This document shows, piece after piece, positions 18,453-50,370 of a stretch of DNA of 64,000 nucleotides. How positions within the stretch are numbered: the first letter of the stretch is position 1; the number at the start of each line of letters is the position of its first letter. Source of the DNA: Symbiodinium natans (taxonomy: Eukaryota > Sar > Dinophyceae > Suessiales > Symbiodiniaceae); contig CAJNDS010000435.1 of NCBI GenBank assembly GCA_905221605.1, forward strand, positions 869,730-933,729, read 5' to 3'. A program made the translations under genes and the position numbers. A model generated the notes under the pieces. The model made no database searches and was not told the origin of the DNA. It saw only the letters and a list, made by a program, of their open reading frames with translations.

Positions 18453-18550
18453 ATGTCGCGTGCGCTGCTTGCTTGGGCTCTGCTGGCTCAAGCCGTGGCT
18501 GTGGACGATGAGGCAGCGTTCATGGGAAAGCAGGGAGAGCGCGGCACCGA
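18453..18550 (+). CDS. Gene 2 exon 1, signal peptide
   Basis: ATG followed by MSRALLAWALLAQAVAVDD: basic start, hydrophobic core and a small-residue cleavage site (AVA). Ends GA|GTGAAG in phase 2. A stop follows if the intron is retained. Confidence 0.8.
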
Positions 18551-18608
18551 GTGAAGTTTGATGGCAACAAGGGAACCCAGGCTAGACTTCCAGGAATGAG
18601 CTCCCCCC

Positions 18609-18642
<34 letters not shown>

Positions 18643-21600
18643 AAAGAAAATAATTAAAAACAAACACGACTCATAGCAAACGTAGATAAGGCCAACAAGT
18701 TATACACCCCAAAACACAACATTCGTAAGAACACATGGAAAAGAAGAGAGCAACCGTAAGCAACCCGACTCATGGAAGGTCAAAAGCCTTCCGGGGGTCG
18801 GCGTGTTGAAGCCGCTGGCTCAGTATCCCTCACCCTCAACCCCCCTAAACCCCCTATTCCCAAAATGCCAATGCCCCCCCCCCCTCCCCCCCCCAACACA
18901 AAAAATGCGCTCAAACCCCTAAAGCCCCCCTAACCCTCCTGAGGCCCTAAACCCTAAACCCTGAACCCCCAAAAAACCCCTGCGCCCCTGACTAGGTTGC
19001 GGCTCCGAGTTTTCAGATGTTGTTCTTTTGTCGGTTTGTTGTTGCCGTAGGTAGGCTTTTGGCTTAGGGCCTAGGGTTGCGGTGTAGATGTCTGTGTGTG
19101 TGTGTGCGCGCACGTTCTTCGATGGGGAGGAGGCGGGGAGGGAGGGGAAGGAGGGGAAGGAGGGGAAGGAGGGGAGGGCGGGTTAAGTTCCTAGGGGGGG
19201 GTGGGGTTTCTGTTGGGGAAGGGGGGTCTTCGGTGATTGAGTGTGTTTAGACTTTCAGGGTTTAGGGTGTTTCTGTTGGGTGTTCAGATTTATTTTGCTG
19301 AGCTTCTAGATTCTGCTTTCGGGTGCGAGCAGGGGCTCAGGTTTGCTTTAGGTTTAGCGTTTTGGGTTTATTTAGGGTCGAGGGTTTAGGGTTGAGAGGT
19401 TTGTGTGTCGTATTGCATTGGGGCTTCTGGTGCATGTAAATGGATGTACAGACAAAGACTCAGTAGTAAGCTAGATTGAAGAACCCTAGACCCTTAACGC
19501 ACGTTCTAAAGAAGGCAACACCCTGAAAAGCCTACAGAGCTGAAAAAAGGTCAGGCAATAGCCCTCCTCACTGAACATCACCCCAAGCAACGTCAAACCA
19601 TTCCGGGCAACCCAACAACCTCGGGAACTCGGGAAGCTGAATAAACCCGGAAACTCAGGTTCATCGCTCGGGATGCGATATGAGACCGGGTGCAACGTAA
19701 GACCCTACAGCCTAAACACCATTGGCTTCTCAGGAACAAGCACTATGCGGGCTTCGCCGTCGTGAATCAAACGACGGACAGGCGCAGCTCATGTTCAGGA
19801 TGGAGGTTTTTGCAGGCCCCTGGAGTTTAGGACCTGCCCTAAACGTCCCAAGCCTTAAATTAAATGTTCTAAGCAAACCGAACTCTAAACTTCTAAACCC
19901 TATCCCTAAGCCCTTATACGCCCTGAGCAACTGTGGGGCTCGAGGCATCTTTTTCCGAAGCGGGCGTTTAGGGTGGTGGCCCCTGACAGGGCTGAAGTGC
20001 TTTGAGGAGGCCAAACTTACGAGTTTTTACTCTCGAACAAGGGGAGATATTCGGAAATTCGGTACCTTCTGTTTCCTTTTTCTGGCTGTCACTCCCGAAT
20101 TTCCCACGAAAAGCCTTAGCGTTTGGCAGCCTCTTTTGTTTCAAGCGGGCTTGGAAGCTTGGGTTGTGGGCTGGATGGTGTTTTACAACGCTTGGATTCT
20201 AGAGCGAGCAATTTTTGAGAGTGTCCTTGATGGTTTGGCCGCTTGTATGAGCCAACAGGACGTCGCAGAAACGATACCCTGGATCGGCAGCAGTTCCAGG
20301 ACAAGACTTGGCGCGTCACAGCCACTGCCGGCGTTGTCGTGACGGTGTGCCCCACAAGCAGGAGCTCCCGGACAAGACGACGCCGATGTGTTTGGCCAGA
20401 CTCGCAACACCCAGCTCGCTGGAATACTCTATTTTACTTCAGATGGTGGTGGCACGGCGCGCCGCCGGATTGGCCGGCCATCACTTGAACCTTGAACGCG
20501 GCAGCAACGCGATCGATGGGTGGGTTCAGGTGCTGCAATCTCCAGCCTCTCCCGGAGCCCCGCGCAAGTTGCTGGATGCGTTCATGGGACCATATGCTCG
20601 TGGCATATAGGCCCTTTCAACTCGAAGTTTTGTTCGGACGAATACGTCCTCAGCAACAGGGCTGTGGCGAACAGTGCATGGTGCTCATGCCTGTGGGACA
20701 AACAGGGGCAACGCAAGGGTTCTCTTTGGTTGTTCCAAACTGGAACTTGCACAAGGGGCTGGCATGAACGCCAAAGCCGTTTCCTCGCTATGCTTTGCAA
20801 CACGCTCTTGCAGACCGGAGCCTTTGCTGGGGAACTAGTTCACTAGTATTAACCTGCTTGTTTCCGGGTGTTTCTGGGTTCTTCTGATTGGGGGAGGGGA
20901 GGGGGGTGGGGATGTTAACATCCGTTCCTACGGTGACCAGGCCCAAACACCCGGGTATTTGCAGTGTTCTTGCCAATGCAAGGAAGTTTGACGTTTCTGG
21001 CACATGACGGCATGTCGCAAGAGCGCGTGTCTTTTGAGAACATGCCTACTGCACGGGGGTTGCGTTCTAAATTCGCGTGTCCTTTCAATTACTCCAGTTT
21101 ACATGAATGTGTTTGGGCAGTATGTTTTCATGTCTTCGCTATAAAGCGAAATGCAAGCAGAGCCTCTGATACCCCATTGTGGCGCTTGGAAAAATGTAGG
21201 TTCGAGCGAGGAAAAGAAAACTAATGTTACACTTTTCTTGCTATAACTGACCAAATCCAGCAAGTGTTTTCTCAGGCACGCCGCCCGCAATAAATCAGTC
21301 AGTGTAGTTAGCTTTTTTCGCGCTGTCACAAGCGCGCATGGTTTTGTGAAAGCGCATGAAAAACCACTCATCAGCCGTAAAACAGCCAACCTCTCCAAAG
21401 AAGTAATCGTCTTAGGATTTTCCAAAGCCTGTGTTTTGAGAACATCACACGCAAGAGCCACGGAACCGCCAGTGGCGTAGCGCGCGACCTAGTTGGGGGG
21501 CTTTCGAGAGCTTTGTGGTCTCTATACTGCTGGTCGGAGTGAATTTTTGCGGGTTGCGCGGCATTTGGGGTTGTTGTTTTTGTCGTCTCATTTTGTGGGC

Positions 21601-24600
21601 TCTCACGTGTTCCGTTTGTTCTGGTATCTGGCCTGGTCCTCCTTGTAAACGTTTGCACATTGCTGCTGATCATCGTTTTGAAACAAACGAATTCCCTGGC
21701 AATGACACATTTGCACCTGAGATTTCGGGCATAGTGAAGTTTTCCACTCTCTTCACGAGTTTGAGTACCATGTTAAACGTGCACATGTGTAAACGAAACG
21801 CAGTTCGAAAGTTCTTCAAAGCTGGCAGTCAGTGCCAAATACTCAACTGCTGTATAGCCTTCGGCTCCAAACACTCTCGTGAAAAGTGTAATGGCGGGAG
21901 GCGACGATGTGGCAAAGCTAGACACCAGACTCAAGTATGTTGAAGGTGCCCTACACTCTACACAAGTCCTTGCCTTCCTTACGGCAAGGGTGTTGGGCAG
22001 GACCGGGAGTGGTCTGCTTCGTTGCGGGCGCCTTCCGTGAGAAGGTTGCGGACAACTAGCGTGTGTGGCGGGAGGGCGCGGCTGTCAACAAGGAAAGGTG
22101 GGGATGGGGGGCAAGACCGGACAAAGCCGTGGAAGTGTCAACTCTTTGACCTGGTCATCGGACACCTGGACAGCCGGACAGCTGGGGACACAAGGCGTGT
22201 CAGGAGCTCTGCGCCAGCAACCTTGCAGTGGAGGCCTGCTTCCACAAAGAACCCCCGGCGGCGGCTGAAACGCCTTGGGTCCTGTCTATGCTTTGTCGCC
22301 AGTCGACGGAGGGTCTCCAGGCACGTAGCTTGCTGGGCCGGGAGGAGATGCGGGGCGCGGTTCGCAAGGTCTGGGCCATGAGAGCGACATCCGGGCCTAC
22401 TTCTGCGGGGACCAGGGCAAATGCAAGGGTGGCAAGGGTGTGGGTGCTGGAGGGAGTGGTAGCCTTGGTGGAGGGAAGCGCTGCGGCGCCTTTCTGCCGG
22501 AAAAACAAGCCTTTGGATTGGAGGAGGGTGGTGTGGTACAGCCCGGTGGGCAGGGCACGCGGTCTCGTACCGTCGAGACCGCGGGGCGAGGGTTGGGGTC
22601 CTGCTTGCGAAGTTGTTCAGTTTGTTGGTGCCTTGGTGTTTGGTTAGCGAAGTCTTGGGAGTGTCTTCACGGGCGCGTCCTGGTACTTTTCGTAGGTCGT
22701 GCGCGTGTAGCTGAAACAGTTTTGGGCGCTGTACGGATGTTAGCTGCGTAGCGCTGCTAGCTTTGGTCGGTATGGAGCGACTACTGATTGTCTGGTGAGT
22801 GCTGGGTTTTGGGAGGATGCCCACAGCGGGGGGATTTCAACCTCCAGTTCCAGTTTTTGATTTTATGGGGGGATTTGGGCAGGGCCGTCTCGTTTAAACA
22901 TGTTACGACACGTTTTCTTTTCTGGTTGGGGCGGCGACAAGCCTGAACGCAACAAGTGTTCGACTCAACCCTGTCGGGGAGTGAGAGAAAGCATAGACAA
23001 ATGTCGGATTACCTTCAAGTGAAGAGGACTTGCCTAGGACTAAGTGCGCAGTCGAGTATCTCAGGGTTGGGCCCAGCGCCCGGAAGCCTTGAACTTTACA
23101 GTCTTTCAACCCTGAACCCTAATTGATCGAAACGTTTTGACCGAGAGTTTTGACCGAATGTGTTGACCGGAAAATACCGAAAAGTCTTGCTTTTAGAGCC
23201 TTAGTTAGTTTCACTTTTTGTGCCCCCGGAGCATTCTGAGGCCTTTCGTGGCATCATTTCTGCGCTGACTTGTTTGGACATACCCCCCGGATATATCTTG
23301 CGAGCAAGAGGCTTAAGCAACCTGATAAGTAAGTTGAACGGCCTGGGCATCCTCGTCAAACGGTGGTTTCCAAAGGACTCTCATTTTTCAGAACACGAGC
23401 AGCTCGTGTTGACATACGGCAGTTCCATTTATGTTGCTTTGAGGGTATAGGGTATGGGGGTTTCGGGTTTAGGAGGAGGTTAAGGCTCACAGCAGTGCAG
23501 GTACATTCTGAAAGCCTTGCATAAACCTCCCAAGAGTAAACCTTTCATAAGGGACCGAAAAGAGTAGATTCCTGTTTGAGTCAAGTTCCTTCACGAGCTC
23601 ACGCAACCTTAAAGCTTAAACCCTAAACCCCTAGGACCCCGAATTCAGAGCCTGCAAACTTAAACCCCAAACAAACGCAGAACATGGGAGCCTGGACCTC
23701 AAGGGCTTAAGGGTTTGGACTTGGGAAAGGGTTTGAATTGCTAGCCGTTCGGATGTTGGGTGGAAGGTGCCGCTTGGGTGGGCTTAACACCTAAACCCTC
23801 AACTTCCCTAAACCTAAGCCCAATCTGCCTCAGACAGCTCTTCTACTGGTTCATCGAAGCCGAATCAGGAAATCAGCCGGGAGCGCCTCATCTGCCACAA
23901 TGCCTACAGGGGCGTGCTTTAAAGTAGAGTCTTCCAAGGCTACCCATGAGGTTGAAGGGCTCCCCCAACATGGCCCCCAATTTGGCAACGAGTTCTCTTA
24001 AACCCTAAACCCTACCATGCCCCTAATTCACCCTGCACGCCCCATAGGCCCTAAAGTAGACCCCTAGTACATGCGAGCCCTAACCCCAACAAGTCGCCCG
24101 AAACCCCAGGACGGAACCTCAGTTGTCCGAGACGATAGAGCTTTTCCCTCCCCCTAAGCCCTGAACTTAGGGGTTAGGGCTTATAGGGTCATAGGGTTTA
24201 AAGGGTTGATAGGGTTTACAGGTTTGAAAGGGTGTAGGGTTTATTTTGGGTTTACCCGAATCCCATTGCTGTTGTTGGATGCAATGGCAACATCAACACC
24301 TCCCAAAGCAGCAGGCCATAGTTTATCACCCCCGTGATTGCATGATATAGCCGTTTACATCCCACCCAGCTAGGCTTTGGGACCCAAGAAACCCCGAAGC
24401 TGAGGTGCTTGAACCCCAGACCCGAAAGCCCCAAGACAAAAGCCAAGAAGCGCCTGAAGCTGAGGTAGCCCCGAAACCGCAAATCCCTTAAACCCCCAAA
24501 CCCCCCAAACCCCCCAAACCGCCCAAACCCCCCAAACCCCCCAGACCCCCCAAACCCCCAAAACCCCCCAACCCCCTAAACCCTAAACTCCAAACCCCAA

Positions 24601-27600
24601 CTAACCCCCTGAGGTGACACCCAACCTCATCTGGATGAACGGCGGCCCCGGCGCCTCCAGCATCATGGGGCTGATGGCAGCTCGCCGGTCTCTTCAAGGA
24701 ACCCAAACCCTGGAAGGTTTTGAGGGGTTTATAGGGTTTAAGGTTTTTTGGGGTTTTTAGGGTGTTTAGGCTTTATCGGGTTTTTTAGGGCTTAATTGGG
24801 TTTATAGGTTTTTTTTGGGGGTTTCGGGGGTTTTTAGGGTTTATAGGGTTTTTTAGGGCTTAATTGGGTTTATAGGTTTTTTGGGGTGGGATTTCGGGGG
24901 TTTTTAGGGTTTATAGGGTTTTTGGGGCTTAATCGGGTTTATAGGTTCTTTTGGGGGGGATTTCGGGTGTTTTTAGGGTTTATAGGGTTTTTTGGGGCTT
25001 AATCGGGGGTTATAGGTTTTTTTGGGGGGATTTCGGGGGTTTTTAGGGTTTGTAGGATTTTTAAACTTAATCAGTTTATGGGGTGTTTTTGGGGGGGATT
25101 TAGGGGGTTTACAGGGTTTAAAGGATGTGCAGGGTTGATAGGGTTTATAGGGGTTTTAGGGTTTTTTGGGTTTAGAGGGTTGAAAGGGTTTATAGGGTTT
25201 GTAGGGTTTATAGGGTTTATAGGGTTTACAGGTTTAGGGTGGTGGGGTTCAGGGTTGTGGGCTGTGGGGCCTACGTAGCTCCCAATCAAGATCAGCCCCT
25301 AAACCCAGAAAGCTCTCAATCTCCAAACTCGCCTGTAAACCCCCAAACCCTCAACCCTAGAAATCCTAGAAACCCAATAAACCCTATAAACCCTATGAAG
25401 CCGATAAACCCGAGATCCTCTCCGTGGTTTACCGCTATCGACACCCAAAGGGCTTAGCCTTTAGGGGTCGGATCATGGGTTTGACTATTTGAGGGCTTCG
25501 GGTTTAGGATGTGCAGTTTCGGGCCCCGACCTTATAAAAAGGGTTTTATAGGGCTCGAAGTTTATGCAAGGTGCGTGGTGTTTAGGGTGTACATCCGAAG
25601 TCGGGCTTAGTGTTTACATGAGATTCATTCGATGCTTGTTTTGGTTTTGTATTGGATTGCGCGCGGACTTGCTGCCCAATCTCAACGATTTAGATGTAAA
25701 TTTAGGTTTGCTTATCCATGGTTGGGTCGCAAAGGCTTTCAAAAACACCAAACTAGAAGAGCTGTGGGTACATGGCCACTGGGGCTTCGGGCGGCTTAGT
25801 GTTAAGGGTTGAGCGTTGCGCACTGCCGAGGTGGAAAACATCGGGCCGCTGACGTTGCAGCAAGACGGCAGCCTTGCCCCGCCAGCTGGCACTGTTTAGG
25901 GGGCTGGGGGTTTAGGGTTTAGGGTTTAGGGTTTAGGGTTTAGGGTCTAGGGTCTAGGGTTTAGGGTTTGTGTGGGGGCTCAGGGTTCGGAAGCTCCAGT
26001 GCCCGCCTATGGTTCGTTAGATCCTATATGGTCAGTTCGCTAGGTCATGGTACCCTTTTGGTGTACACCTAAATTGTAGGAGCCACCTTAGAATAGTAAC
26101 CCCAAAATGGGTACTAAATTAGAGGAGTCACCATATGGCCTGTGAAGGAAATATAGGGCCATTTTGGAAAGAGGTATTTTTGAAGATCAACTACGAGGAG
26201 CTGTCCCCCACCCCAAACCCTGGACAGCCCAGAACCCGACATCCTAAGCCCTAGACCGTCCTCCACCTGCCTTTGCCCTAGGGTTTGGGGGTTTAGGCTT
26301 GAGGCTTTAGGCGCTGGGGTTTACACGTAGGTTGGTGCTTCGTTTTGGGTTGAGAGTTCTGAGTGGCACCGCACCCTATACCTACTGGGGTCTAAGCAGA
26401 GTGCTTGGGATTTCATCGGATGTAGCACTTCAACCCTGCACCGGAAAACTCTGACCCCAAGCCACAGTCAGGCATGTGGCCTATAGAGCAGCAAACAATT
26501 GTTAACTAAGGCAAGATCCTTTCAGTCATGTTGCCATCCTGTTTTCCCTAGTCTAATGCTAAACTCCTGTGAGGTTCAGGGCTTTGGCTCAGAATGACTT
26601 AAGCGCAAAGATTCAGAAATCTGGCACCCAAACCCCCTAACTCCGAATACATCAATGCTTATACATGCCGTCGACTTGCCGAAGCTGATTTCGCAAACTC
26701 AGCAAAGTCCAGCTCATTCGACTTATGGGTTTGGGGTTTAGGGTATAGGATCCAACTTCTGGGCGCATTTTGGATCCTGAACCCTAATCTTCAACCCCCA
26801 AAGGGCCCGATTCTTGAGATCCATTCCCATGTCCTTCTCGAGTTGCCGAGAGCCCTGGCGTACCCTGGGGTTCACAGTTTACGGTTTTACGCTTTAGGGT
26901 GTAGGGTACTGCGGTTTAGCTTTTAGACGTTCGCGGTTTGAGGTTCATTTAGGGTGTGATACATCCCTAAGCCGCAGCTCCAGTCAAATCTGTGTGTGGC
27001 GTGCCAGGAACCCACACGCCTGGAGCGGGAAGAACAACGCAGCTTGGCTTTGACCTACTGGTCCTTAGGTAGGGAATGACTGTTTAGGGGTTCAGGGTTT
27101 TAGCGTCTTAGGATTCAGGGGTTGTGAATTCCCCTCGTGCCGTTTGTTTTGAATGAGCCCCTCATCCCCCCCCCCCTCCCCTCCAAACAAGATATAGATG
27201 CCTTCTTGTGAGAAAGTCTCCTGCTGCCGATGTCCCCGCAACAACTTGATCCTGATGCAGAACCATTGATTAAGAGGCATATTGGACTCTTTGGATCTAT
27301 GATGAGTTCTAAGATGCGATCCTTTAGCAGCGTCCCGAATTGCTGCCTGTTGTGCGGCTCAGAAGCAATTCACCCCTTCCTGGGCCACCACAGATTGGTT
27401 CGAACAGCAAGTGCTGCTTGAGGGCCATCTCGTTGGAATTCAGGTCTGGGTGTTCATGAAAAGTATGGGCCCTGTTTCGGTCTCTGTTCTGGTACGTCTG
27501 TTGCTTGTAGTATGTGTGTACACTTAACATAGAGTGATATACAAAAGTAGAAGCATTGCAGCGTTGCTTACGTGTCTTTGCCTGTCAATCATTCCGGGCA

Positions 27601-30600
27601 CAAGAATGAGTCCATACTTCGAGCAAGGCAGTAGCCTAATTGAATAGGATGGGCATTGTGGGCTGGTTTAGATGATAGCTATATACAGGGGTTAGAAGGG
27701 GATGAGATTGACAACTACTTAAAGGAATGCTAAGGTCACAACCCTAAACTACCCTCATTTCCCACAGGCCCCATGGCCAAGCACTGCACTCCCTTAGGTC
27801 CAGCCTACTCCAGAACACTCCACGCTACGTAGTTCCTAACGTTTCGGCCGTGCCATCGCTAAGCATTGGGTCGAAGCCAGTACTGCCTATAATATAATTA
27901 ATACCCTAAAACCCCACCCCCTGCCCAAATTCTAAACGATTTGGGGGGCTAAATCCTAAAGAATAGGGTTTAGCGAATAGGGTTTAGCGCCTAAATCCTA
28001 AAGAATAGGGTTTTGGAATAGGATTTAGGGCCTAAATCCTAAAGAATAGGGTTTAGGAATAGGGTTTAGGGCCTAAATCCTAAAGAATAGGGTTTAGGAA
28101 TAGGGTTTAGGGCCTAAATCCTAAAGAATAGGGTTTAGTAATAGGGTTTAGGGCCTAAATCATAAAGAATAGGGTTTAGCGAATAGGGTTTAGGGCCGAA
28201 ATCCTAAAGAATAGGGTTTAGGAATAGGGTTTAGGGCCTAAATCCTAAACGAATAGGGTTTAGAGCCAAAAATCTTGAAAATGAGGGGGTCATTTCTGCC
28301 ATATGAATTCTATTTAAAATCAATTGGGAATCGGCCACTTTTTCCCGAATCCTGGGGTACCCCCCACGGAGGCCTAAATCCTATTTGCTAAATCCTATTC
28401 CCGGACACGCTAAATCCTAAACGAATAGGATTTAAGGCCTAAATCCTAAAGAATAGGGTTTAACGAGGCTTACTGCAGATTTGGGTTCGGTGTTGGGAGG
28501 ACTTGGGTGGTTTCTGGGTTGGGTATTTGGTAGGGCTTGCATTGAGGGCGCACATGTTCACTTCGGACAGGTGCTCATCATCGACAATCCTGTGGGTTCC
28601 GGCTTCAGTTGCTTGGCACAGGGTATGGGACAGAGGGGATCTCAACAGTCGGAAAATGTGAGTTGCAGTTCAGGGTCTACATGGACCCTTGCTTTGATTG
28701 CAGTTCCGCTCTTTGGAGGGTACCTAGGTTTCTGGTTACATCAACCGTGTAATAAGAAGATCGGCAAATCGAACAAAACCTAAGGGTTAAGGGTTTAGGG
28801 TTGTGGCCGCTTGGTGCACATGGCCACCCTGAGTCCTCTGACGACCGAGCTTCCGACACCCCAAACCCTGAAATCCAAAGACAAGAAGCTTCACCCCTCA
28901 GGCTTAGGCGAGCCCATTCCCAACATCGAGACATGATCAACTATAGGTACTTCGGCCCCTGGAAAGTGTTGTTTTCCACTTGAGGGGACCAAATTTAGAA
29001 ACGTATTGCAGAGAGTGTTTCATGGCCAACCTAGTCAAGATTCAGGTCGACCCATGGGTTAGACCCTGGGAATGATACTACGTAGTTTTCTTTGGCATTG
29101 GATGTGGAGAGGCTGAGGGGCTGAAGGGTGTGCTAGGCCCAGAGCCCTAAAAACCCCCAACAGCAGAAACTCAAAGCCTGCAACCCTAAACCCCAGACCC
29201 CAAATCCTAAACCCCATAAAAATCCCTCAACCCTGAACCCTAAACCCTAAACCCCATAAACCCTAAATCCTAAACCCCAAACCCCATAAACCCTCAACCC
29301 TGAACCCTCAATCCGAGCCCTGCGTCTCACCTGCGTCTGTCACGCAAGGCTTCACAGGCAAAGAGCCAAAGCCCCAGCTGCCTCGGTAAGGGTTTAGGGT
29401 TTAGGGTTTGGGGCTTGGGGCTTAGGGTTCAGGATTTGTAGCCTTAGGGTGTGGGAGGGAAGGCAGACAGCGCCCTGAACCCTCAGCCCTGTCAACCTTA
29501 GCACACACCTAAACCCTAAACCCTAACCCTAAACCCTAAATCCTGGACCGGTTTGGCATAACCTGTCGGCGGGTCGATGTGGCGTAGCGCCCCAAGCCCT
29601 AAACTAGGACCCAGATAGGCCCTTCTCCTTTGTTGGGGGGGGGTGGGGGGTTAGGTTCCTTAGAATTGAAACCAAAAGGGCACCTTTTTTTTGCTTGGTG
29701 ACTCTTGGGCCTAGTGAATCCGCTTACCTTATGCCCTGAACCCGTAAACTACCCAAACCCCTGAGCAACGGCTCCCCCAAAAGCTTCAAGCTTGGCAGGA
29801 CCTACGGTCGGGATATGGCAATGATCAGTCTGAAGTCATATATATATATATATGTATATCATGTATATCATGTCGTGTCTGATCTTACCTTATTATCGCA
29901 TATTAATAGTTTCGGACATAAGTTGCAGTATAGGTAGAGAATCTAGCAAATAAGATAGAATATGGTGCGGGGTACGTAGCCAACCTTCAACTTTAACTGT
30001 CTCCGGGTCCTAACCAACCTTGAGCGAAGTGTTAGAGCCCTGAAACCGCCGAAGGCGAACCTATTCCCCCCTCGAAAGCTGAGCCCCTATGTCGACCCGC
30101 AGCTTGACACCCTGAGCATCCCCACAGCCTTACCCGATTTTTTCCGGTGCTTCTAAGAGGTCTTAACCCCCTAAACCCTAAACCCTCAGCCCTAAACCCT
30201 AAACCCTAAACCCTAAACCCTAAACCCTCAAGATGGCGCCTGACTCCCACTGAGCTGCCTGAGGAGCTACGTCACTTCGGAGGAGGAGATGCGCAAGGAC
30301 TTCTACACGGCCCTGAAGCACCCAATCCGGACTATTCCGAACAACGGCTCTGGTTCAGGGTTTGTGGTATAGGGTTTAGGGTTTAGGGTTTAGGGTTTAG
30401 GGTTTAGGGAGTTTGGTGAGTCAGTTTGAGTTTGCCCTAAACCCAAACACCCCGTGGGCTTTGGGGCCGTGGGAGATGCTGGCTCAGGGCGCCGGCCTCC
30501 CTCAAGCAAAGCAATCCCTTGGCCTTTCCCACCCTGAAACCCTAGATCGTGACACTCACAACCGACACTCAACCCCTAAACCCTAAACCCTAAACCCTAA

Positions 30601-39600: not shown

Positions 39601-42600
39601 GCTAAAACCCAAGAGGCCCAGTCCTGAACTCTTATTCAAACCTAGACCAGACGCAAACCAAGCCCGGTATAAGCTCTCAATTCAAAAGCCTCAGCCCTTA
39701 AACCTTTAGGGCTTCGGGTTTAGGGTTCAGGCTTTAGGGCCCTCAACCCGAAACCTCATTCCTAAGACCCCAAGGTTGCCTGACTGACAAAGGGCTACTT
39801 CGGCGGGCGCCGGTCAAACCCTGAACCCCAGACCCTGAACCCTGAACCCTTAAAGCGCTAAACCCCTGAATCCCTACATCTCAACCCCTGAAACTCTAAA
39901 CCTTAACCCCCAAACCCTACACCCTAATCCTCCAAAACCCCAAAAAGCCTTCACCCCACCTCTCCCACAGCCGAAGGCTTGAAGGACGCCTCGTTCTTGG
40001 ACAAGCTGACGGACCTCCTGGGCCGTCCCTGGGGCTCTCCGTGGGCTTTAGGCTGTAGGGTTTAGGCGAAAGATCTAGATTTGTTATTCATTTTGTTCGG
40101 GGGAGGGCAGGGGGGGTCACAGGGCTACCGATTGTGAGCTTGGGCTTACGGTTTAGGGTCATGTCGGGTTCGGCGTAGGATTGCTGCGCACTTTTCGAAA
40201 GGGTTGGCCACTTGTCACCTTGGATTGTCACCTGGCTGGCATGGTTTCGGATTTAGGGTTCAAGGTTCCCTAGGGCCGGGGAGGTGGGAGTTTAGAGATC
40301 TGGGATTTAGGGTCTGGGATTAAGGGTTCCCTAGGGCCGGGGAGGTGGGAGTTTAGAGATCTGGGATTTAGGGTCTGGGATTAAGGGTTGGGGCCTAGGG
40401 CTGTTTCTGTTCTGCCGATGTAGGGGCGTGCTGCAGATTGTTGTGTAGTTCTGCTCTCTTGCAACTTGAGGAGATGAGCCTATGCAAGCTGACATGCTTG
40501 GTTGCTCATGGGTATCCCAACACAACTTGCGGTTACAACATACAGGCCACCCGCATGGCCGAGAAATGCCCTAACACCCATGGAGGTGGTCAAAAGAGTA
40601 TTATGGGGGGCTTTCTTACTTTCAAAAGGCTTTTCGGGGTTGTCATCGTATATTTAGAAATGGACCACAAGGGAATACGATTAGTAATTCCTCCGACCCC
40701 TATAATAGTACCCTCCATACATACCTTAAACAGGCCCCATATACCTAAGTAGCCCCCCCTTCCGACACCTCTGTTAGCGTGGCATCTTGCCTGCGCCAAG
40801 GCTACCTGAACAGCGCGGCGACTCGGGCCGCCCTCCATGTCGGGAACAGGACGCCCGACACCCTCAACCCCGGTGCTGGGTGTTTAGCTTTTAGGGTTTG
40901 CGATTTAGGGTTTAGGGTTTAGGGTTTAGGGTTTAGGGTTTAGGGTTTAGGGTTTAGGGTTTAGGGATGTTTAGGGGAGGCAGGCTATAGGACGAGCTTT
41001 GCGCGGAATCCGAAGCCCAAACCCTTCAAAACACAGATGAGCCCTAACCTCGAATCCCTAGACCCTGAGCTGCACCAACTAGGAGCAATGACTGCTTTCG
41101 GCTGGAGGTGCCCCCTAAACCCCCTAAGCCCCTTAGACCCCTAAAGCCCCAAAGGTTCTGGAGAGGCTTGGGAACCCCTTTTAGGGATGGATGCCGTGGC
41201 TGGGCCTGATTGGAGACCAGAGAGCCCCGAAGAAATAGGGCTCAGCATTCATACATGGCCAGCTCTCGAAGTGATGGTCCGTTTTAAGGTACCCTAAAGA
41301 CAGGGGCCACCTTGAAGGACCCCAAAGAGACCAAATTCTACCATAAAGCGCTTTCGGGGCTTATAGGGTTTAATTAGGGTTTTTGGATTTTCGGCCTCAG
41401 GCTTGGGGCCTCGGGACTTAGACCTTCGCGGTCGCCTAGTGCTGCACACGTAGGAACAGGAGGGTTTCCGGGTTTGGGGTCAGAACCTCCTTCTCCGGCC
41501 TCAGCTTGCTGTGCGCCTCAAGCTGTAGACCTGCGTCGCCTTTGTGCGCCTTATCTTTGACGATCATGGCATCGGCTGAGCCGCTGCTTGAAGCACCGGA
41601 TCTTGAGACCGGACTGGCCTCACAGGAGAGCGAGGCGGAGGCAGCGCCTGGGCCTTAAAGTAGTAATAAGGAGTCGTATAGCGTTTTGTTTGGGATGTTC
41701 CCCCCTTATACGAACAGGCCTTAATAGGGATTATGATGAGAGTACCCCGATTACTCCCTATTAACGACTGTTAGTATGAGGGGGAAAATCCCAATGTCTT
41801 GTGTTCTAGTTACGATTTGACTTGTAAATTAATTGCTACCTCTTTGTTTAGGAACTGTCGAAAAGTCAAGGTACCTGAGGAACAGCCCCAGCGCCCCCCA
41901 GTCTTTCGGGACATCTGCTGCTTCCTTCCCATGGGAAGCATCTATCACTACGTTCAGCGGAACATGCTTCCTTCCACTCCCGGCTACGCGTGGAGCGTCC
42001 TCAGCCGTCGCTGGGTTCGTGCTCTGACGACGTTGGCAGTGTTCATTGCTGCCCTCCTGGCGGAGGGTATGGAGTCCGGATTCAATTATTGGCTGGTACT
42101 GAACAACCTGATATTTGGATTCCTCCTACTGTTTGCTGGCTTTGTACCGGCCTTTAGGGACCCAGCACCATCGCGTCCCGACATCTTTCTCGGCTTGGCA
42201 GCGGCCGTGCACACTTGGCGAGCCGCTTGGCACGTAGTCGGCACGGATGATGAGGGTTCTCCAGCCTGGGAGCGCCGAAATGGCCTGTGCTCCGAGCACC
42301 TGGCGATGTTTTGGATCATCGTCCTTGTGACCATGTGCCTATATCCCCCTTGGGAAGGTTTTGTTTATATAAAACCCAAGAGGATATTAAAATTACTAGT
42401 TTTTTAAGGTTCTAAGGGGAGTATAGGTGCGGCACCGAAACCCTTGCTGTGGGTACCTATGGCGCCGCTTTGATCGTCCTGCAACAGACGACCGGCGTGC
42501 CAGGTGTGCCATGCTTCTTGGCGGCCTTCTGCATGCTGGTTCCTGCGTACCTAGCCGAGCGTATTTGGTGCTCAGCGTGCGCTGAGCTTCATCGATGCCG

Positions 42601-48600: not shown

Positions 48601-50370
48601 GAGGTGTCCACAATCCGTGGTTAAGGGAATTTCACCTCGGTGAGAATTAGAAGCCAAGTAGAATTTGGCTTGACTTCATTAGGTTTTGGGGTTCGGCGGT
48701 CGGGGGTTTCGGGGGGGGGGGGGGGGGGGGGGGGGGGGGCGTACCCTACAAACCCTAAGCCCTTAGCCCCTAACCCTAAACCCTAATCCCTCCCGCTCAC
48801 GCTCTTGTTCTTGCTGCACCTTGGAATCCTTTGCCAGTTTAAGTTCAAAGGGCTGCCTGCGAAGGCCCCTAAGCACCCTAAAGAAGCCCTGACGGTTGAA
48901 TCCTTAGCCAGGGTTTGGGCTCAAAAAAAACTGGCAAAAGGAAAAAGAGAGGGACCTCGCCTGAAAAAGCTTCTCTGCAATGGAAGTCTTAAGCAATATG
49001 CAATAAAAAGGAAAGTAGACTGCTGGCCAGCCGATGTTTCTAATTGTCACCCCATTTTTATTTTCACCATACCCCGTTGTATATATCAGTTTAGCCATAT
49101 GAGCCCAGAACCTTCTCCGAATGGAAGGTCGTCTTGGACCGGGATCCCCGGGGCCTGCCGAATCGTAGAATTCCCGCCCCGTTGATAAATGTCAGGTTAA
49201 CATTAGGGTTTAGGGTTTAGGGTTTAGGGTTTAGGGTTTAGGGTTTAGGGTTTAGGGTTTAGGGTTTAGGGTTTCAGGCCGTAAGGTTGTAATTCAAAGC
49301 TGCCGGGAAACCTTTGGCTTCCTGTATGTATACTTTTTCCGGGGTGAGGGGCGAGGAAGCTGGGCACGTCGGCTTGTAGGTGTAGGTTTCAGGGTTTAGG
49401 TGGCTTCGAAGCCCCTAGACCCTTATGCCGAATACCCAAGCCTAATACCTCTTATAACTACTAACCCCAAACCCCAAACCCTAAACCCTCAACACCCTAA
49501 CACCCTCAACCGCCCTAAACCCTAGGCGCCCTAAACCAGGACACCTGGTGCCCATGATCGTCCCAGACACCGCCAGGGCGATGATTGCCACTTGCCAAGT
49601 TCGGCTCAGGATTTTGGGGTTTTGGGGTTTTGGGGTTTAGGGTTGAGGGCTTAGGGTTTAGGGTTTAGGGTGAAGCCCTAAACCCTACGCCCTAAACCGA
49701 ATAGACCCGAAGCCTTAAACCCAGAAAACCAGATCGGGTGAAGGGTTGGGCTTGGGTTTTTTGGTGGGCATCCTGTGGTTATTACAATGCTGCTATCATA
49801 GACAAAGAGCCAGGGGGGGTGTAAGTGTAAGGGCGGGGAGTGCAAGGGAAAGTATTCCACAAAAAAGGTTCCAAATAGCCCAAATAAGCCCTTAATCAGC
49901 CTTAATTTTTGCAGGGATCACCTGCAAAGAAGAGTTGCCGGGCTCTTGGGGATCCGCCCACTGTCCCTGGGGTCCCCCCTTACAGTTTAGTTTTTTTCGG
50001 GCCGAGATCGTTTGTCAGTTTTTTTGCAATGCAAACTTTAAACCAAAACCCCTCACAAGCTTTCAGAAGCCGGCTTGGGCTTTTGAAGCGAAGGTTTATG
50101 GCCTCCCTGCTTGCCTCGCCTCTCTCTTTTTCCAGGTTTCATCACCGTTCTGGCTCTGAAAGTGATCACGACCCCAAGTTCAACCTAATCTCATTGGAAC
50201 CGAAAAGCTACCCAAAAAATGTTTAGGGCTTGCGTTTGGGCGTATTTCAATGAAATTTGAGCTTTATTTGAGCAAATCCTAATAAGCCTTGACCCCCAAA
50301 CCCCAAACCCCAAATAGCCAAGGAGGAGATCGTGAACACTGCATCCGCGCAGGGTGCCATCGTGGTCTGA
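18453..50370 (+). CDS. Gene 2: secreted serine carboxypeptidase (peptidase family S10, CPVL-like), 24 exons
   Basis: Removes single residues from peptide C-termini by an alpha/beta-hydrolase Ser-Asp-His triad, acting in the secretory or lysosomal/vacuolar route. Joining 24 exons in phase gives about 455 residues, normal for S10. The signal peptide is at 1-17. LFYWFIEAE is at 51-59, the oxyanion-hole motif NGGPGASS at 74-81 and IDNPVGSGFS at 118-127. The nucleophile motif TGESYGGKYVP has Ser182. IIIGNG is at 206-211. YNGVRDGS carries Asp354, VCNHLGN is at 357-363, and GHLVP carries His422. Nothing essential is missing. Of 23 introns about 13 begin with GC, 6 or 7 with GT and 3 or 4 with GA, and 19 acceptors read AG|G. 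Coding sequence is about 1.37 kb in 31.9 kb. The gene hosts a nested gene in intron 17. Exon 13 has two possible ends (36855 or 36867), giving 455 or 459 residues. The N-terminal segment before residue 33 is inferred from phase. Confidence 0.93.
18606..18641 (+). repeat. Poly-C tract, over 30 bp
   Basis: Almost pure C run shortly after the exon 1 donor of gene 2, followed by an A-rich stretch. Confidence 0.95.
19734..19781 (+). CDS. Gene 2 exon 2 (NKHYAGFAVVNQTTD)
   Basis: Matches the S10 N-terminal block where KYYAGY or similar precedes the LFYWF motif. CAG acceptor; GC donor GCGCAG in phase 2 that completes Arg with exon 3. A longer open frame in another phase overlaps it but is rejected. 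Confidence 0.85.
20308..20610 (+). CDS. Open frame in intron 2 island, 100 codons, unrecognised
   Basis: Reads without repeat sequence, for example LARLATPSSLEYSILLQMVV. Overlapping frames at 20492-20767 and 20520-20846 are also open, so frame shifts or small introns are possible. Function unknown. Confidence 0.25.
   Translation: MARHSHCRRCRDGVPHKQELPDKTTPMCLARLATPSSLEYSILLQMVVARRAAGLAGHHLNLERGSNAIDGWVQVLQSPASPGAPRKLLDAFMGPYARGI
21515..21943 (+). CDS. Open frame in intron 2 island, 142 codons, unrecognised
   Basis: Cys-rich hydrophobic start, then ETNEFPGNDTFAPEISGIVK. No domain recognised, no clear splice borders. May be chance. Confidence 0.2.
   Translation: MVSILLVGVNFCGLRGIWGCCFCRLILWALTCSVCSGIWPGPPCKRLHIAADHRFETNEFPGNDTFAPEISGIVKFSTLFTSLSTMLNVHMCKRNAVRKFFKAGSQCQILNCCIAFGSKHSREKCNGGRRRCGKARHQTQVC
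21891..22040 (+). CDS. Small open frame MAGGDDVAKLDTRLKYVEGA..., 49 codons
   Basis: ATG-initiated in a coding-like frame that would break at a GT donor (TTCC|GTGAGA) near 22034. It could be the first exon of a nested gene continuing near 22228 (VEACFHKEPPAAAETPW). Not recognised. Confidence 0.35.
   Translation: MAGGDDVAKLDTRLKYVEGALHSTQVLAFLTARVLGRTGSGLLRCGRLP
23220..23450 (+). CDS. Open frame SEAFRGIISALTCLDIPPGY..., unrecognised
   Basis: About 76 codons with balanced composition (LISKLNGLGILVKRWFPKDS) and no telomere repeat, stop TAG at the end. Likely an exon or gene remnant of the island. No family recognised. Confidence 0.4.
   Translation: MPPEHSEAFRGIISALTCLDIPPGYILRARGLSNLISKLNGLGILVKRWFPKDSHFSEHEQLVLTYGSSIYVALRV
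23834..23882 (+). CDS. Gene 2 exon 3 (QLFYWFIEAESGNQPG)
   Basis: The S10 signature block before the oxyanion hole. Acceptor CTCAG, donor GCGCCT. Confidence 0.92.
24485..24590 (-). repeat. AACCCCCC-type repeat
   Basis: Tandem AAACCCCCC/AAACCGCCC units, a telomere-like variant; makes the glycine/tryptophan pseudo-frame on the minus strand. Confidence 0.85.
24614..24676 (+). CDS. Gene 2 exon 4, oxyanion hole (NGGPGASS)
   Basis: Encodes VTPNLIWMNGGPGASSIMGL plus Met, the hallmark S10 block. Acceptor CTGAG, donor GCAGCT in phase 0. Confidence 0.95.
24718..25075 (+). repeat. Minisatellite, about 67-bp unit, 4-5 copies
   Basis: Each unit contains GGGCTTAATTGGGTTTATAGG, then T- and G-runs, then TTTTTAGGGTTTATAGGG. 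It is derived from telomere-like sequence and follows gene 2 exon 4. Confidence 0.9.
25100..25240 (+). repeat. Degenerate TTTATAGGG repeat
   Basis: GGGTTTATAGGGTTTGTAGGG-like units give a Gly/Phe pseudo-frame on the + strand and an Asn-Pro pseudo-frame on the minus strand. Confidence 0.85.
25831..25880 (+). CDS. Gene 2 exon 5 (VENIGPLTLQQDGSLA)
   Basis: Continues exon 4 as GLMVENIGPLTL, the S10 'E-GP' block. Acceptor CCGAG, GC donor in phase 2. Confidence 0.9.
25905..25972 (+). repeat. TTTAGGG array
   Basis: Eight to nine heptamers, two changed to TCTAGGG, about 25 bp after an exon end. Confidence 0.95.
26022..26140. mobile_element. Inverted-repeat element family B, copy 2
   Basis: Starts CCTATATGGTCAGTTCG and ends GTCACCATATGG; interior CACCTAAATTGTAGGAGCCACC and GTAACCCCAAAATGGG aligns with 15261-15371. 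Confidence 0.65.
27008..27041 (+). CDS. Gene 2 exon 6 (NPHAWSGKNNA)
   Basis: S10 block N-P-x-x-W that precedes the IDNPVG motif. 34 nt, acceptor TGCCAG, donor GCTTGG. Joins both neighbours in frame. Confidence 0.88.
27946..28264. repeat. Hairpin minisatellite, about 42-bp unit, roughly 8 copies
   Basis: The unit joins both strands of the telomere-like repeat: CCTAAATCCTAAAGAATAG is followed by GGTTTAGGAATAGGGTTTAG. Each unit is therefore partly self-complementary. Looser copies continue at 28372-28462. Confidence 0.9.
28571..28647 (+). CDS. Gene 2 exon 7 (VLIIDNPVGSGFSCLAQG...)
   Basis: S10 block IDxPVGxGFS. Acceptor GGACAG, GT donor (GTCGGA) in phase 2. Confidence 0.93.
29180..29300 (-). 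repeat. Degenerate CCCTAAACCCCATAAA repeat
   Basis: Mixed CCCTAAA, CCCCAAA and CCCATAAA units in gene 2 intron 7. Confidence 0.85.
29650..29712 (+). repeat. Dispersed repeat family C, copy 2
   Basis: GGTTAGGTTCCTTAGAATTGAAACCAAAAGGGCACC then ACTCTTGGGCC, matching 55201-55282. Confidence 0.55.
30264..30329 (+). CDS. Gene 2 exon 8 (SYVTSEEEMRKDFYTALKHP)
   Basis: The S10 helix with the usual DFYxAL motif before the nucleophile block. Acceptor CTGAG, GA donor (GACTAT). Confidence 0.9.
30365..30412 (+). repeat. TTTAGGG array
   Basis: Six to seven heptamers about 40 bp after an exon end. Confidence 0.95.
30572..30652 (-). repeat. Perfect CCCTAAA array
   Basis: About 11 heptamers. With the opposite-orientation array at 30365-30412 it can pair to form a long hairpin in the intron RNA. 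Confidence 0.95.
30838..30935 (-). repeat. CCCTAAA array
   Basis: About 13 heptamers with single variants (CCCTAAG). Confidence 0.95.
31146..31178 (+). CDS. Gene 2 exon 9 (YILTQHPEYA)
   Basis: S10 'HPEY' segment. 33 nt, acceptor GCAAG, GA donor (GACTTC). Confidence 0.85.
31679..31717 (+). CDS. Gene 2 exon 10, catalytic serine (NPLWVTGESYGG)
   Basis: GES-Y nucleophile elbow; catalytic Ser codon AGT at 31704-31706. 39 nt, acceptor GAAAG, GC donor GCGGCT in phase 2. Confidence 0.95.
31936..32003 (+). CDS. Gene 2 exon 11 (YVPNVAYEIHLRAELPLKGI...)
   Basis: Directly continues GESYGGK as in S10 enzymes and ends KGIII plus G; GC donor GCTGGC. Confidence 0.95.
32523..32560 (+). CDS. Gene 2 exon 12 (NGVYSGLIQNPT)
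   Basis: Completes the conserved IxIGNG block. Acceptor CGTCAG after a poly-C run, GC donor GCGCCT. Confidence 0.92.
33311..33418. repeat. Exact 54-bp tandem duplication followed by poly-G
   Basis: Two nearly identical copies of a unit with CCTAACCCCCGGCTGGGGG, then a poly-G tract to 33462. Confidence 0.9.
34012..34245 (+). CDS. Possible exon in intron 12 island, unrecognised
   Basis: Follows TTGCACAG and stays open to TGA: LVSYSLTSYVIDQTQDPDHR and on to DLARTQARK. It has a cysteine cluster (CQMCCCQ). Could be the last exon of a nested gene. Confidence 0.4.
   Translation, partial: LKLVSYSLTSYVIDQTQDPDHRLEENRTQKFIGNSGSFVCQMCCCQGSKTVGNSLGLQDTQADFAVVVDLARTQARK
34369..35062 (+). repeat. Tandem duplication, 335-bp and about 359-bp copies, WW-like frame in the first
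   Basis: Copy 1 is 34369-34703 and copy 2 is 34704-35062, about 90 percent alike by eye, with small indels. In copy 1 an open frame reads RPRWKRVDSRTMNEFYYHNI and resembles a WW domain (Trp, then YY-x-N, then T-G), but the second Trp is absent. Copy 2 changes Tyr to Asp and has frame-breaking indels. Both contain the donor-like GGTAAGTGG. Confidence 0.75.
34373..34735 (+). CDS. Open frame with weak WW-domain resemblance
   Basis: About 120 codons from copy 1 of the tandem duplication, running past its end. The duplicate copy is disrupted, so this may be a pseudogene exon. The WW reading is by motif only. Confidence 0.3.
   Translation: MLQQAQHTVSGQADARPPSMTSNGQPRPRWKRVDSRTMNEFYYHNIQTGDRRVCKRFKERGSSAQLDTSSVYVTQLLPSPPMVNAPHPPLKKQFKIISQGAFFRFLAVRFSPCSSELSTR
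35471..35962 (-). CDS. Minus-strand open frame, 163 codons, doubtful
   Basis: The longest minus-strand frame outside repeats (for example YGRESLLLVSLVVRGGIFSY). It overlaps a 99-codon + strand frame at 35544-35843. I cannot tell which, if either, is real. No domain recognised. Confidence 0.2.
   Translation of the reverse strand: MHGLSQDSLLVYNPQGHFQRPTLTRFMAWAQRWSAVSEMCHRHRLLRLAVYEAQDTEHFLTARPLAAERSSLAAAGQKYGRESLLLVSLVVRGGIFSYLQDSDRKHFSQPNNFRRDHFPRCKGLRICCSGCEWGLGQQAIDFLYRLFHVEQDGVEGAASDLHV
35477..35560 (+). CDS. Short frame MQIGRGAFDSVLFDVKQSVK..., ends in stop
   Basis: 27 codons of good coding composition ending EIDGLLS and TAA. May be a terminal exon of a nested gene. Frames on the other strand overlap it. 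Confidence 0.35.
   Translation: MQIGRGAFDSVLFDVKQSVKEIDGLLS
36038..36412 (+). CDS. Open frame, 124 codons, unrecognised
   Basis: Reads HVLVALGLLGCSRLTLPAKG then LAGTGALLGGLGCTVYSLGR with a stop after CSVIR. Hydrophobic segments suggest a membrane peptide. A second + strand frame (35896-36294) overlaps. Confidence 0.3.
   Translation: MKFHGAVVANQATNKTERTRQCMWHSGQSGLIHVLVALGLLGCSRLTLPAKGLTQPPLAGRRDLALLHPWKSHILWQFQACGLAVRRELSRVRELAGTGALLGGLGCTVYSLGRRAKRACSVIR
36786..36855 (+). CDS. Gene 2 exon 13 (VPEFAYNMGLIDDHQLLAPS...)
   Basis: S10 block with the AYxMGLID motif. Acceptor ACTTAG. Ends at a GT donor at 36856, or at a GA donor at 36868 adding four residues (GSMV); both keep phase. Confidence 0.9.
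38155..38245 (+). repeat. TTTAGGG array just before exon 14
   Basis: About 11 heptamers end 20 bp upstream of the exon 14 acceptor. Confidence 0.95.
38268..38347 (+). CDS. Gene 2 exon 14 (LKQFVKDQKLKEAEKFCEDS...)
   Basis: Charged helical cap segment of S10 with a Cys; ends VHDLYA. Acceptor AACCCAG, GC donor GCTCGG. Confidence 0.88.
38971..39013 (+). CDS. Gene 2 exon 15 (ASNTTAGGVFYYDV)
   Basis: S10 'YD' block after the cap. Acceptor TCACCAG in phase 0, GC donor in phase 1. A longer version to 39027 (GT donor) is possible but breaks phase. Confidence 0.82.
39971..40021 (+). CDS. Gene 2 exon 16 (EGLKDASFLDKLTDLL)
   Basis: Acceptor CCCACAG, GC donor GCCGTC in phase 1. Confidence 0.85.
40264..40390 (+). 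repeat. Exact 61-bp tandem duplication
   Basis: Two copies of a unit beginning GGTTCCCTAGGGCCGGGG, no mismatch seen over most of the length, indicating a recent event. Confidence 0.92.
40801..40838 (+). CDS. Gene 2 exon 17 (YLNSAATRAALH)
   Basis: The S10 YLN-x-ALHV motif. Acceptor GCCAAG, GT donor GTCGGG; exon 18 supplies VGPV to complete ALHVG. Confidence 0.93.
40905..40970 (+). repeat. TTTAGGG array
   Basis: About nine perfect heptamers in gene 2 intron 17, upstream of the nested gene. Confidence 0.95.
41251..41347. mobile_element. Degenerate inverted-repeat element family B, copy 3
   Basis: ATACATGGCCAGCTCTCG, then TGATGGTCC, GGTACCCTAAAGACAGGGGCCACCTT and ACCCCAAAGAG align loosely with copies 1 and 2; the right end is worn. 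Confidence 0.4.
41566..43261 (+). CDS. Nested gene: multi-pass membrane protein with PAS-like domain and C-terminal coiled coil
   Basis: A complete gene inside gene 2 intron 17, same strand. The exons are 41566-41651, 41852-42334 and 42427-43261 (467 residues). The introns are 41652-41851 (GC donor) and 42335-42426 (GT donor). The cytosolic N-terminus is acidic (MASAEPLLEAPDLETGLASQ). About five or six hydrophobic segments follow, among them AVFIAALLAEG, LIFGFLLLFAGF, AMFWIIVLVTM and GTYGAALIVLQ. Then comes a PAS-like fold: SIESGHVVESSPGLEAYMG at the start and KIVPYKLSLDDKRLSIWVGV at its last strands. The C-terminus is charged and helical (ERGVEELEQALSEMHQRYLE) and ends EDEKKA. PAS domains sense ligands or redox state, so a membrane sensor is likely. 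No kinase or cyclase domain follows. Its compact, repeat-free layout contrasts with its host. Confidence 0.85.
41690..41794. mobile_element. Foldback MITE family A, copy 3, inside intron 1 of the nested gene
   Basis: Starts TTGGGATGTTCCCCCC and ends GGGGGAAAATCCCAA. The inner arms CCTTAATAGGGATTA and TTACTCCCTATTAACG pair. It makes up half of the 200-nt intron. Confidence 0.85.
43700..45173. other. Gene 2 intron 17, downstream of the nested gene
   Basis: Scattered degenerate TTTAGGG (43690-43710, 44510-44640), a poly-C tract at 45025-45041, no supported exon. A possible exon near 44831 (TGTGGAGCTCATCTTC) is not needed for the reading frame. Confidence 0.5.
45174..45239 (+). CDS. Gene 2 exon 18 (VGPVAEGLVNDFETEQGPLP...)
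   Basis: Completes ALHVG from exon 17 and runs to PNK. Acceptor CGACAG, GT donor GTGTTG in phase 0. Confidence 0.88.
46353..46409 (+). CDS. Gene 2 exon 19, catalytic aspartate (LRSVGGYRVVTYNGVRDGS)
   Basis: The YNG-x-x-D motif of S10; Asp codon GAT at 46401-46403. Acceptor CCTGAG, GT donor GTGGCG. Confidence 0.92.
47332..47397 (+). CDS. Gene 2 exon 20 (VCNHLGNLMSMKEWEGMAWL...)
   Basis: S10 motif VCN-x-x-GN, then the W-rich block. Acceptor CCCGAG, GC donor GCTGAA. Confidence 0.93.
47583..47632 (-). repeat. CCCTAAA array
   Basis: Seven heptamers in gene 2 intron 20. Confidence 0.95.
47795..48012 (-). repeat. Longest CCCTAAA array in the window
   Basis: About 30 heptamers with one break (CCCTAACCTTAAA) in about 215 bp, ending some 35 bp before exon 21. 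Confidence 0.97.
48048..48123 (+). CDS. Gene 2 exon 21 (ALKWNGTLAFNAAATTPWRP...)
   Basis: Continues to LGSLA. Acceptor AAACAG, GC donor GCCCTC in phase 1. Confidence 0.9.
48467..48517 (+). CDS. Gene 2 exon 22 (YQRSSGALSYYTILYT)
   Basis: Completes AGY and leads to the catalytic-His block. Acceptor GGCCAG; GA donor (GACTCATGG) in phase 1. Confidence 0.9.
48711..48739 (+). repeat. Poly-G tract, nearly 30 bp
   Basis: Uninterrupted G run in gene 2 intron 22. Confidence 0.97.
48959..49205 (+). repeat. Dispersed repeat family D, copy 1
   Basis: Shares CTGAAAA...TTCTGCAATGGA, GCCAGCCGA, AATTGTCACCCC, GAACCT, GTCTTGG-CCGGG with 53031-53255. Both copies end at the border of a TTTAGGG array. Accounts for most of an open frame here (48805-49185). 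Confidence 0.7.
49203..49276 (+). repeat. TTTAGGG array
   Basis: About ten heptamers directly attached to the right end of repeat family D. Confidence 0.95.
49540..49598 (+). CDS. Gene 2 exon 23, catalytic histidine (HLVPMIVPDTARAMIATCQ)
   Basis: With the G of exon 22 it reads TGHLVPM, the S10 GH-x-VP motif; His codon CAC at 49542-49544. Acceptor ACCAG, GT donor GTTCGG. Confidence 0.93.
50323..50370 (+). CDS. Gene 2 exon 24, C-terminus (EEIVNTASAQGAIVV, stop)
   Basis: Phase 0 after exon 23, acceptor GCCAAG, stop TGA at 50368-50370. The C-terminus of S10 proteins is not conserved, so this rests on frame and position. Confidence 0.7.
   Translation, partial: EEIVNTASAQGAIVV

Follow-up and report, generated by a model that had tools for sequence, protein, structure and literature searches.

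The described genes closest to the one reported here are the intron-rich genes of dinoflagellates. In Table 2 of PMC10666404, six of the seven columns list 25–58% GC and 0.1–24% GA splice donors together with 80–97% AG|G acceptors, and the seventh lists 99.9% GT donors; in the four columns presumed to be those of Polarella and Symbiodiniaceae (a partly inferred assignment), AG|G acceptors make up 96–97%, exons measure 99–120 nt and there are 11.6–17.2 exons per gene. Table 2 of PMC7245778 gives exon lengths of 101–158 nt for Polarella and Symbiodiniaceae species, and in its account of Polarella the same paper puts the proportion of genes nested in introns at 6.5–8.4%. Dinoflagellate annotation pipelines, as outlined in PMC8045281 and PMC10666404, recognise GC and GA donors and make use of transcripts.

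Here we describe, in a window of 64,000 nucleotides (the whole stretch of DNA that was analysed), a gene for a putative serine carboxypeptidase of the Peptidase_S10 (S10) family. It has in common with the intron-rich genes covered in those parts of PMC10666404 and PMC7245778 a dominance of GC donors, the presence of GA donors, acceptors of the AG|G type, long introns and a nested gene, but its exons average 53 nt, against published means of 99–158 nt. It is an extreme member of the class, with exons at most half the usual length and an intron density two to three times the usual one; it is ordinary in kind and extreme in its degree of fragmentation. We put at roughly four in five the probability that the locus is one dinoflagellate nuclear gene for a secreted or vacuolar S10 serine carboxypeptidase, interrupted by more than 20 mostly GC–AG introns and with another gene inside one of them. 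The introns, averaging ~1.4 kb, would be removed by ordinary cis-splicing at dinoflagellate splice sites (GC, GA or GT donors and AG|G acceptors), the mRNA might be capped by spliced-leader trans-splicing, and the protein would be routed into the secretory pathway and use a Ser-Asp-His triad to remove C-terminal residues; that the gene is transcribed and spliced, at exactly these borders, and that its product is secreted and active is in each case our inference. The locus illustrates in detail the extent to which a gene that looks functional may be broken up.

The attribution to a dinoflagellate that had been made in a preliminary description of this DNA is borne out by the genome searched (759.4 Mb, 2,543 contigs), in which the DinoSL 21-mer has 205 exact matches and a reversed-pattern control has none; within the 64-kb window no DinoSL match was found at up to three mismatches. 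The GC content of the window is 51.6%, and that of 20 other stretches 51.0%. Two further S10 genes in this genome, at loci L002 (1483–2772) and L001 (1486–2490), have long uninterrupted reading frames that measure 429 and 334 aa, and the gene in the window is far more fragmented than either; intron content therefore differs greatly within the S10 family of one genome.

The exon chain and its breaks

The window was searched by dynamic programming of a protein profile against DNA, with introns admitted in three phases and with GT, GC or GA donors and AG acceptors. A first guide was put together from alignments to lysosomal protective protein in the PDB; a second, an approximate CPVL-like sequence, was combined with scoring terms for the third codon base and for the AG|G acceptors favoured in published dinoflagellate genes (the blended guide). 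On the + strand, this splice-aware search recovered an S10 gene that runs from an ATG at 18453 to a TGA at 50370, the same ends as had been proposed before, and that scores above all controls. The chain comprises 23 exons totalling 1,223 nt (mean 53 nt, range 31–98 nt), and 3.8% of the locus is coding, in keeping with the many very small exons and the ~4% coding content claimed earlier. Likewise as claimed, the family motifs follow one another along the chain in the order NGGPG, IDNPVGSGFS, GESYGG, YNGVRD and GHLVP, and with them the members of the triad: Ser in GESYGG (exon 31679), Asp in YNGVRD (exon 46345) and His in GHLVP (exon 49540). The catalytic residues of the family are Ser in GESY, Asp after YNG and His in GH.VP, and the motifs themselves are visible in the PDB alignments. 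Asp and His lie 68 residues apart, exactly as in the earlier numbering (Ser182, Asp354, His422), which suggests that the same chain had been reached there; Ser and Asp, however, lie 145 residues apart rather than 172, the preliminary description having placed ~27 residues between them where the final chain places none. The chain has 15 GC, 4 GA and 3 GT donors, AG|G acceptors in 20 of 22 cases and a GC content of 0.575, 0.435 and 0.781 at the three codon positions, statistics that are not independent of the chain scoring, into which the third-base term and the AG|G preference were built. The main exons, their order and strand, the motifs and the host group we regard as established at the level of the DNA itself.

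We gauged single exons by masking in turn each of the 29 exons of the blended-guide chain, with 109 exons from shuffles as the null (95% point 9.2, maximum 17.1). Nine exons exceeded the null maximum, one equalled it and 19 fell below it, 14 of these below the 95% point; the small values arise in part because rival chains score almost equally. The best-scoring chains differ from the final one, in which some exon borders and exon 47332 were set by hand, in that 46957 replaces 47332 and in having additional small exons.

All exons are on the + strand. Exon 1 (18453–18550) encodes MSRALLAWALLAQAVAVDDEAAFMGKQGERGT plus a split Glu codon and ends at a GT donor; its hydrophobic N-terminus is signal-peptide-like, and the exon, which is in phase with exon 2 and lies outside all guides, rests on phase and position. 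Exon 2 (19734–19781; NKHYAGFAVVNQTTD) has an AG|G acceptor, a GC donor and a leave-one-out value of 31.2 (as 19729–19781), against the null maximum of 17.1. Exon 3 (23834–23882; QLFYWFIEAESGNQPG) has an AG|A acceptor, a GC donor and a value of 16.6 (as 23834–23868); its rival is a GA donor after 23868 followed by an 8-nt exon at 24420. The NGGPG motif lies in exon 4 (24614–24676; VTPNLIWMNGGPGASSIMGLM), with a GC donor, or a later donor in one search, and a value of 71.7. Exons 5 (25831–25880; VENIGPLTLQQDGSLAP), 6 (27008–27038, 31 nt; NPHAWSGKNN) and 7 (28571–28610; VLIIDNPVGSGFS) all have GC donors, with values of 14.9, 26.2 and 42.1, respectively. The next junction (28610–30264) breaks the phase: at least one exon must be missing there or a border misplaced.

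Beyond this break lies exon 30264–30317 (SYVTSEEEMRKDFYTALK; GC donor; 41.6), whose start the searches placed at 30267 and which we moved by hand to the AG|G at 30264. It is followed by exons at 31146–31178 (33 nt; YILTQHPEYAR; GA donor; 9.9), 31679–31717 (39 nt; NPLWVTGESYGGK, with the catalytic Ser; GC donor; 37.1) and 31936–32003 (YVPNVAYEIHLRAELPLKGIIIG; GC donor; 25.5). Values within the null range were obtained for the three exons at 32523–32560 (38 nt; NGVYSGLIQNPT; GC donor; 6.6), 36786–36821 (36 nt; VPEFAYNMGLID; GA donor; 7.1) and 38288–38354 (DQKLKEAEKFCEDSVHDLYAAR; GA donor, with a rival GC donor after 38344; 6.6 as 38288–38344). Exon 39977–40021 (LKDASFLDKLTDLL; GC donor) reached 17.1 (as 39971–40021), and exon 40801–40872 (YLNSAATRAALHVGNRTPDTLNP; GT donor), the borders of which vary between searches and which has a rival acceptor at 40778 (AG|C), reached 29.4 (as 40778–40872).

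The remainder of the chain opens with a doubtful exon at 43631–43669 (DLRQAPDKSLKPW; AG|A acceptor; 3.3 as 43631–43677), to which we return below. The catalytic Asp is encoded at 46345–46409 (PELRSVGGYRVVTYNGVRDGS; 21.9 as 46369–46417), an exon whose borders vary and whose GT donor was chosen by hand. Exon 47332–47397 (VCNHLGNLMSMKEWEGMAWLKK; GC donor), likewise hand-chosen, was found at the strongest intron penalties and is in phase with both neighbours; its rival, the 25-nt exon 46957–46981 used by the best-scoring chains, was set aside since by eye 47332 is closer to the S10 family. Exons 48048–48123 (ALKWNGTLAFNAAATTPWRPLGSLAG; GC donor) and 48467–48517 (YQRSSGALSYYTILYTG; GA donor) both have values of 6.5, within the null range, and exon 49540–49586 (GHLVPMIVPDTARAMI; 15.4 as 49540–49589), with the catalytic His, has a GC donor that varies between searches. 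The last exon (50323–50370; EEIVNTASAQGAIVV plus the stop TGA), whose start was found at one penalty (-10), is in phase and has an AG|G acceptor.

Several further candidates were rejected: 36649–36713 (FGANKNCV), which appeared with the first guide only; 38842–38870, which on inspection by eye has third codon positions poor in G and C; 26080–26095, offered by the first-guide search; and exons of 3–12 nt offered at 28881, 29046 and 34670. The segments 32690–32701 (SYSY) and 40399–40429, the latter with a leave-one-out value of 11.1 against the null 95% point of 9.2, lie outside the final chain and are still possible exons. An origin of the introns as introners is unsupported: inverted repeats of at least 8 nt near both ends occur in 1 of 22 introns, and equal-length random stretches gave a mean of 0.6 and a maximum of 4 in 200 draws.

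The joins from 32560 to 36786 and from 40021 to 40801 are in frame, but the protein is ~4–8 and ~25 residues shorter there than a guide that was in part approximate, and single-exon enumeration in these two gaps and in 28610–30264 gave a clear winner for none. With three gaps in the chain, the gene had been called complete too readily, and of the 24 exons said to join in one frame, what stands is a chain of 23 with one junction out of phase, two stretches that look short and one doubtful member. The phase break and the two short stretches are what would be expected if the exons were relics of a decayed S10 pseudogene that no longer join, a reading that we consider unlikely: the three joined pieces contain no stop except the final TGA, third-position GC is 0.78, the catalytic Ser, Asp and His are all kept, and exons of 10–20 nt are readily missed by similarity. 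The S10 carboxypeptidase gene is probably functional.

A nested gene in a copied block

Within the S10 intron between exons 40801 and 46345 lies a second gene on the same strand (41566–43261, +), apparently in three coding parts, that is absent from the preliminary description. It belongs to a multi-copy family, carries two short inserts and matched no Pfam family above the cut-off. Its closest copies are 98% (contig C2030) and 97% (C1827) identical in protein, and paralogues at 50–57% identity lie on C1762, C1817 and C200. The nested gene is held in a block of ~2.9 kb (window 41221–44400) that has two other copies, on C2030 and C1827, at ~94–95% DNA identity, extending over ~41221–44088 (94.65%) in one copy and over 41423–44088 (94.4%) plus 44088–44195 in the other. 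The left end of the block at the S10 locus is common to one copy only and the right end to the other only, which would fit the S10 locus as the source of the block. The arrangement resembles the intron-nested genes described in the Polarella glacialis data of PMC7245778 in that a gene lies within an intron of a multi-exon gene, but differs in that the nested gene here belongs to a block copied recently. Close to the ends of the block copies lie telomere-like repeats. A dispersed hairpin (MITE-like) element occurs in the window at 41690–41794, 8590–8692 and 15518–15614 and at four other loci (L001, L018, L022 and L028); its copy at 41690–41794 falls within one of the two short inserts in the nested gene, one that resembles an intron.

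The doubtful exon 43631–43669 lies within this block. It is the best candidate there by similarity, but in the other two block copies its length differs by a single base (shorter or longer), enough to shift the S10 frame, and its membership of the S10 gene is doubtful. That the only similar exon candidate within the block is so uncertain, and that the ~2.9-kb block is duplicated elsewhere, raises the possibility that the block has split the S10 gene in two, with what precedes 40872 and what follows 46345 transcribed separately. We hold this to be somewhat less likely still than pseudogene decay, as the S10 family order runs on past the block, both GHLVP and the closing exon are kept, and a related dinoflagellate commonly has genes nested within introns (6.5–8.4% of genes in the Polarella account of PMC7245778). 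A single S10 gene with another gene in one of its introns is the reading that we prefer.

Controls on the chain and its visibility to profile searches

The PDB-derived guide was run against 11 controls (8 dinucleotide shuffles, together with the reverse strand and with the window flanks, joined and read on each strand). The real window scored 284 against 153–205 at an intron penalty of -13, and 190 against 82–125 at -17; with the blended guide, the real chain scored 477 against 107–166 in 5 shuffles. The C-terminal half alone scored 189.8, or 174.7 when the nested gene was masked; 20 shuffles averaged 76 (sd 12) and reached 106.9 at most, and none of 5 natural controls exceeded 116.5. Without the third-base and AG|G terms, the PDB-derived guide alone recovered 9–11 of the 23 final exons across five penalties, and among the exons it recovered 6–8 of 8–11 had AG|G acceptors.

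Searched apart, the three S10 pieces matched Pfam Peptidase_S10 (PF00450) at 105.8, 65.7 and 53.6 bits (cut-off 21.9), over positions 7–100, 109–187 and 281–419 of the 420 in the profile, with ~188–280 lying outside them. The first two pieces matched lysosomal protective protein in the PDB (5.5e-17 and 6.7e-11), cathepsin A/lysosomal protective protein being their nearest solved relative; at E 0.001, nothing in the PDB matched the C-terminal piece. The protein probably resembles the CPVL or cathepsin A type. Used as a query against the genome, the 280 residues that begin at exon 30264 gave 13 matches (E up to 1), 11 of them inside the S10 gene; the two outside it were weak (26.9 and 17.4 bits), and no near-identical paralogue was seen.

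A Pfam match of the joined protein had been suggested beforehand as a confirming check. The joined chain does match, at 199.6 bits, but the check is not discriminating: all five guided control chains that were submitted (from the 11 controls) match Peptidase_S10, three above the cut-off (26.1, 41.8 and 32.4 bits) and two below it (17.0 and 21.4). Because three of five pass, such a match on a profile-guided chain is weak evidence alone and requires controls. That a flexible splice search has assembled a carboxypeptidase from noise, as those three passing chains might suggest, is nevertheless highly improbable, the real chain standing at 199.6 bits where the best of the same five controls reached 41.8, and its search scores exceeding those of every control set. 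So far as sequence can show, the S10 locus is a real carboxypeptidase gene.

When PF00450 was searched against the genome in six frames and exon by exon, it gave nine matches (E ≤0.001) on five other contigs and none on that of the window; the gene is therefore hard to see without splicing, and exon-by-exon profile searches can miss genes of this kind. To this extent the near-invisibility claimed for the gene stands, but its extension to standard annotation was overstated, since the pipelines take GC and GA donors and transcripts into account.

Telomere-like repeat in the locus and the genome

The locus had been characterised as 32 kb of telomere-like repeat, a description that the counts contradict. 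At no more than one mismatch, (TTTAGGG)2 covers 6.7% of the S10 locus and 10.6% of the window flanks, and at up to three mismatches 20% of the locus. In 20 other stretches of 10 kb, taken at round positions (19 on contigs listed for DinoSL and one on C1535) and not a random draw, its mean cover is 10.8%, with a bimodal distribution of 14–28% in 11 stretches and 0–4.2% in the other 9. Genome-wide, (TTTAGGG)3 has 1,185,204 forward and 1,184,385 reverse matches, or 2.37 million with overlapping ones counted, against 41 and 33 for a reversed-pattern control. Its density is 3,120 per Mb in the genome as a whole and 2,318 per Mb in the S10 gene; being less dense in the gene than genome-wide, the repeat characterises much of the genome and shows no enrichment at the S10 gene. 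Interstitial TTTAGGG occurs in both orientations genome-wide, in loci L012–L031 and in the window (1–64000).

We found no description of genome-wide interstitial TTTAGGG in Symbiodiniaceae among the listed open-access titles and the opening parts of their abstracts; the portions of PMC11453091, PMC7023079 and PMC11508785 concerned discuss telomeres at chromosome ends, and the main text of PMC8045281 contains no word starting with 'telomer'. As a tentative suggestion, which we think has perhaps a modest chance of being right, the telomeric repeat may have been scattered in both orientations through a large genome compartment by some process that swelled introns and left arrays near the ends of copied blocks, with the S10 gene caught up in it. 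The presence of millions of interstitial telomeric units raises the testable question of how they entered a genome. A simple repeat also lies beside S10 matches on C407 (L005, ~800–970), where it reads as Ser-Leu runs on one strand and as Arg-Glu on the other.
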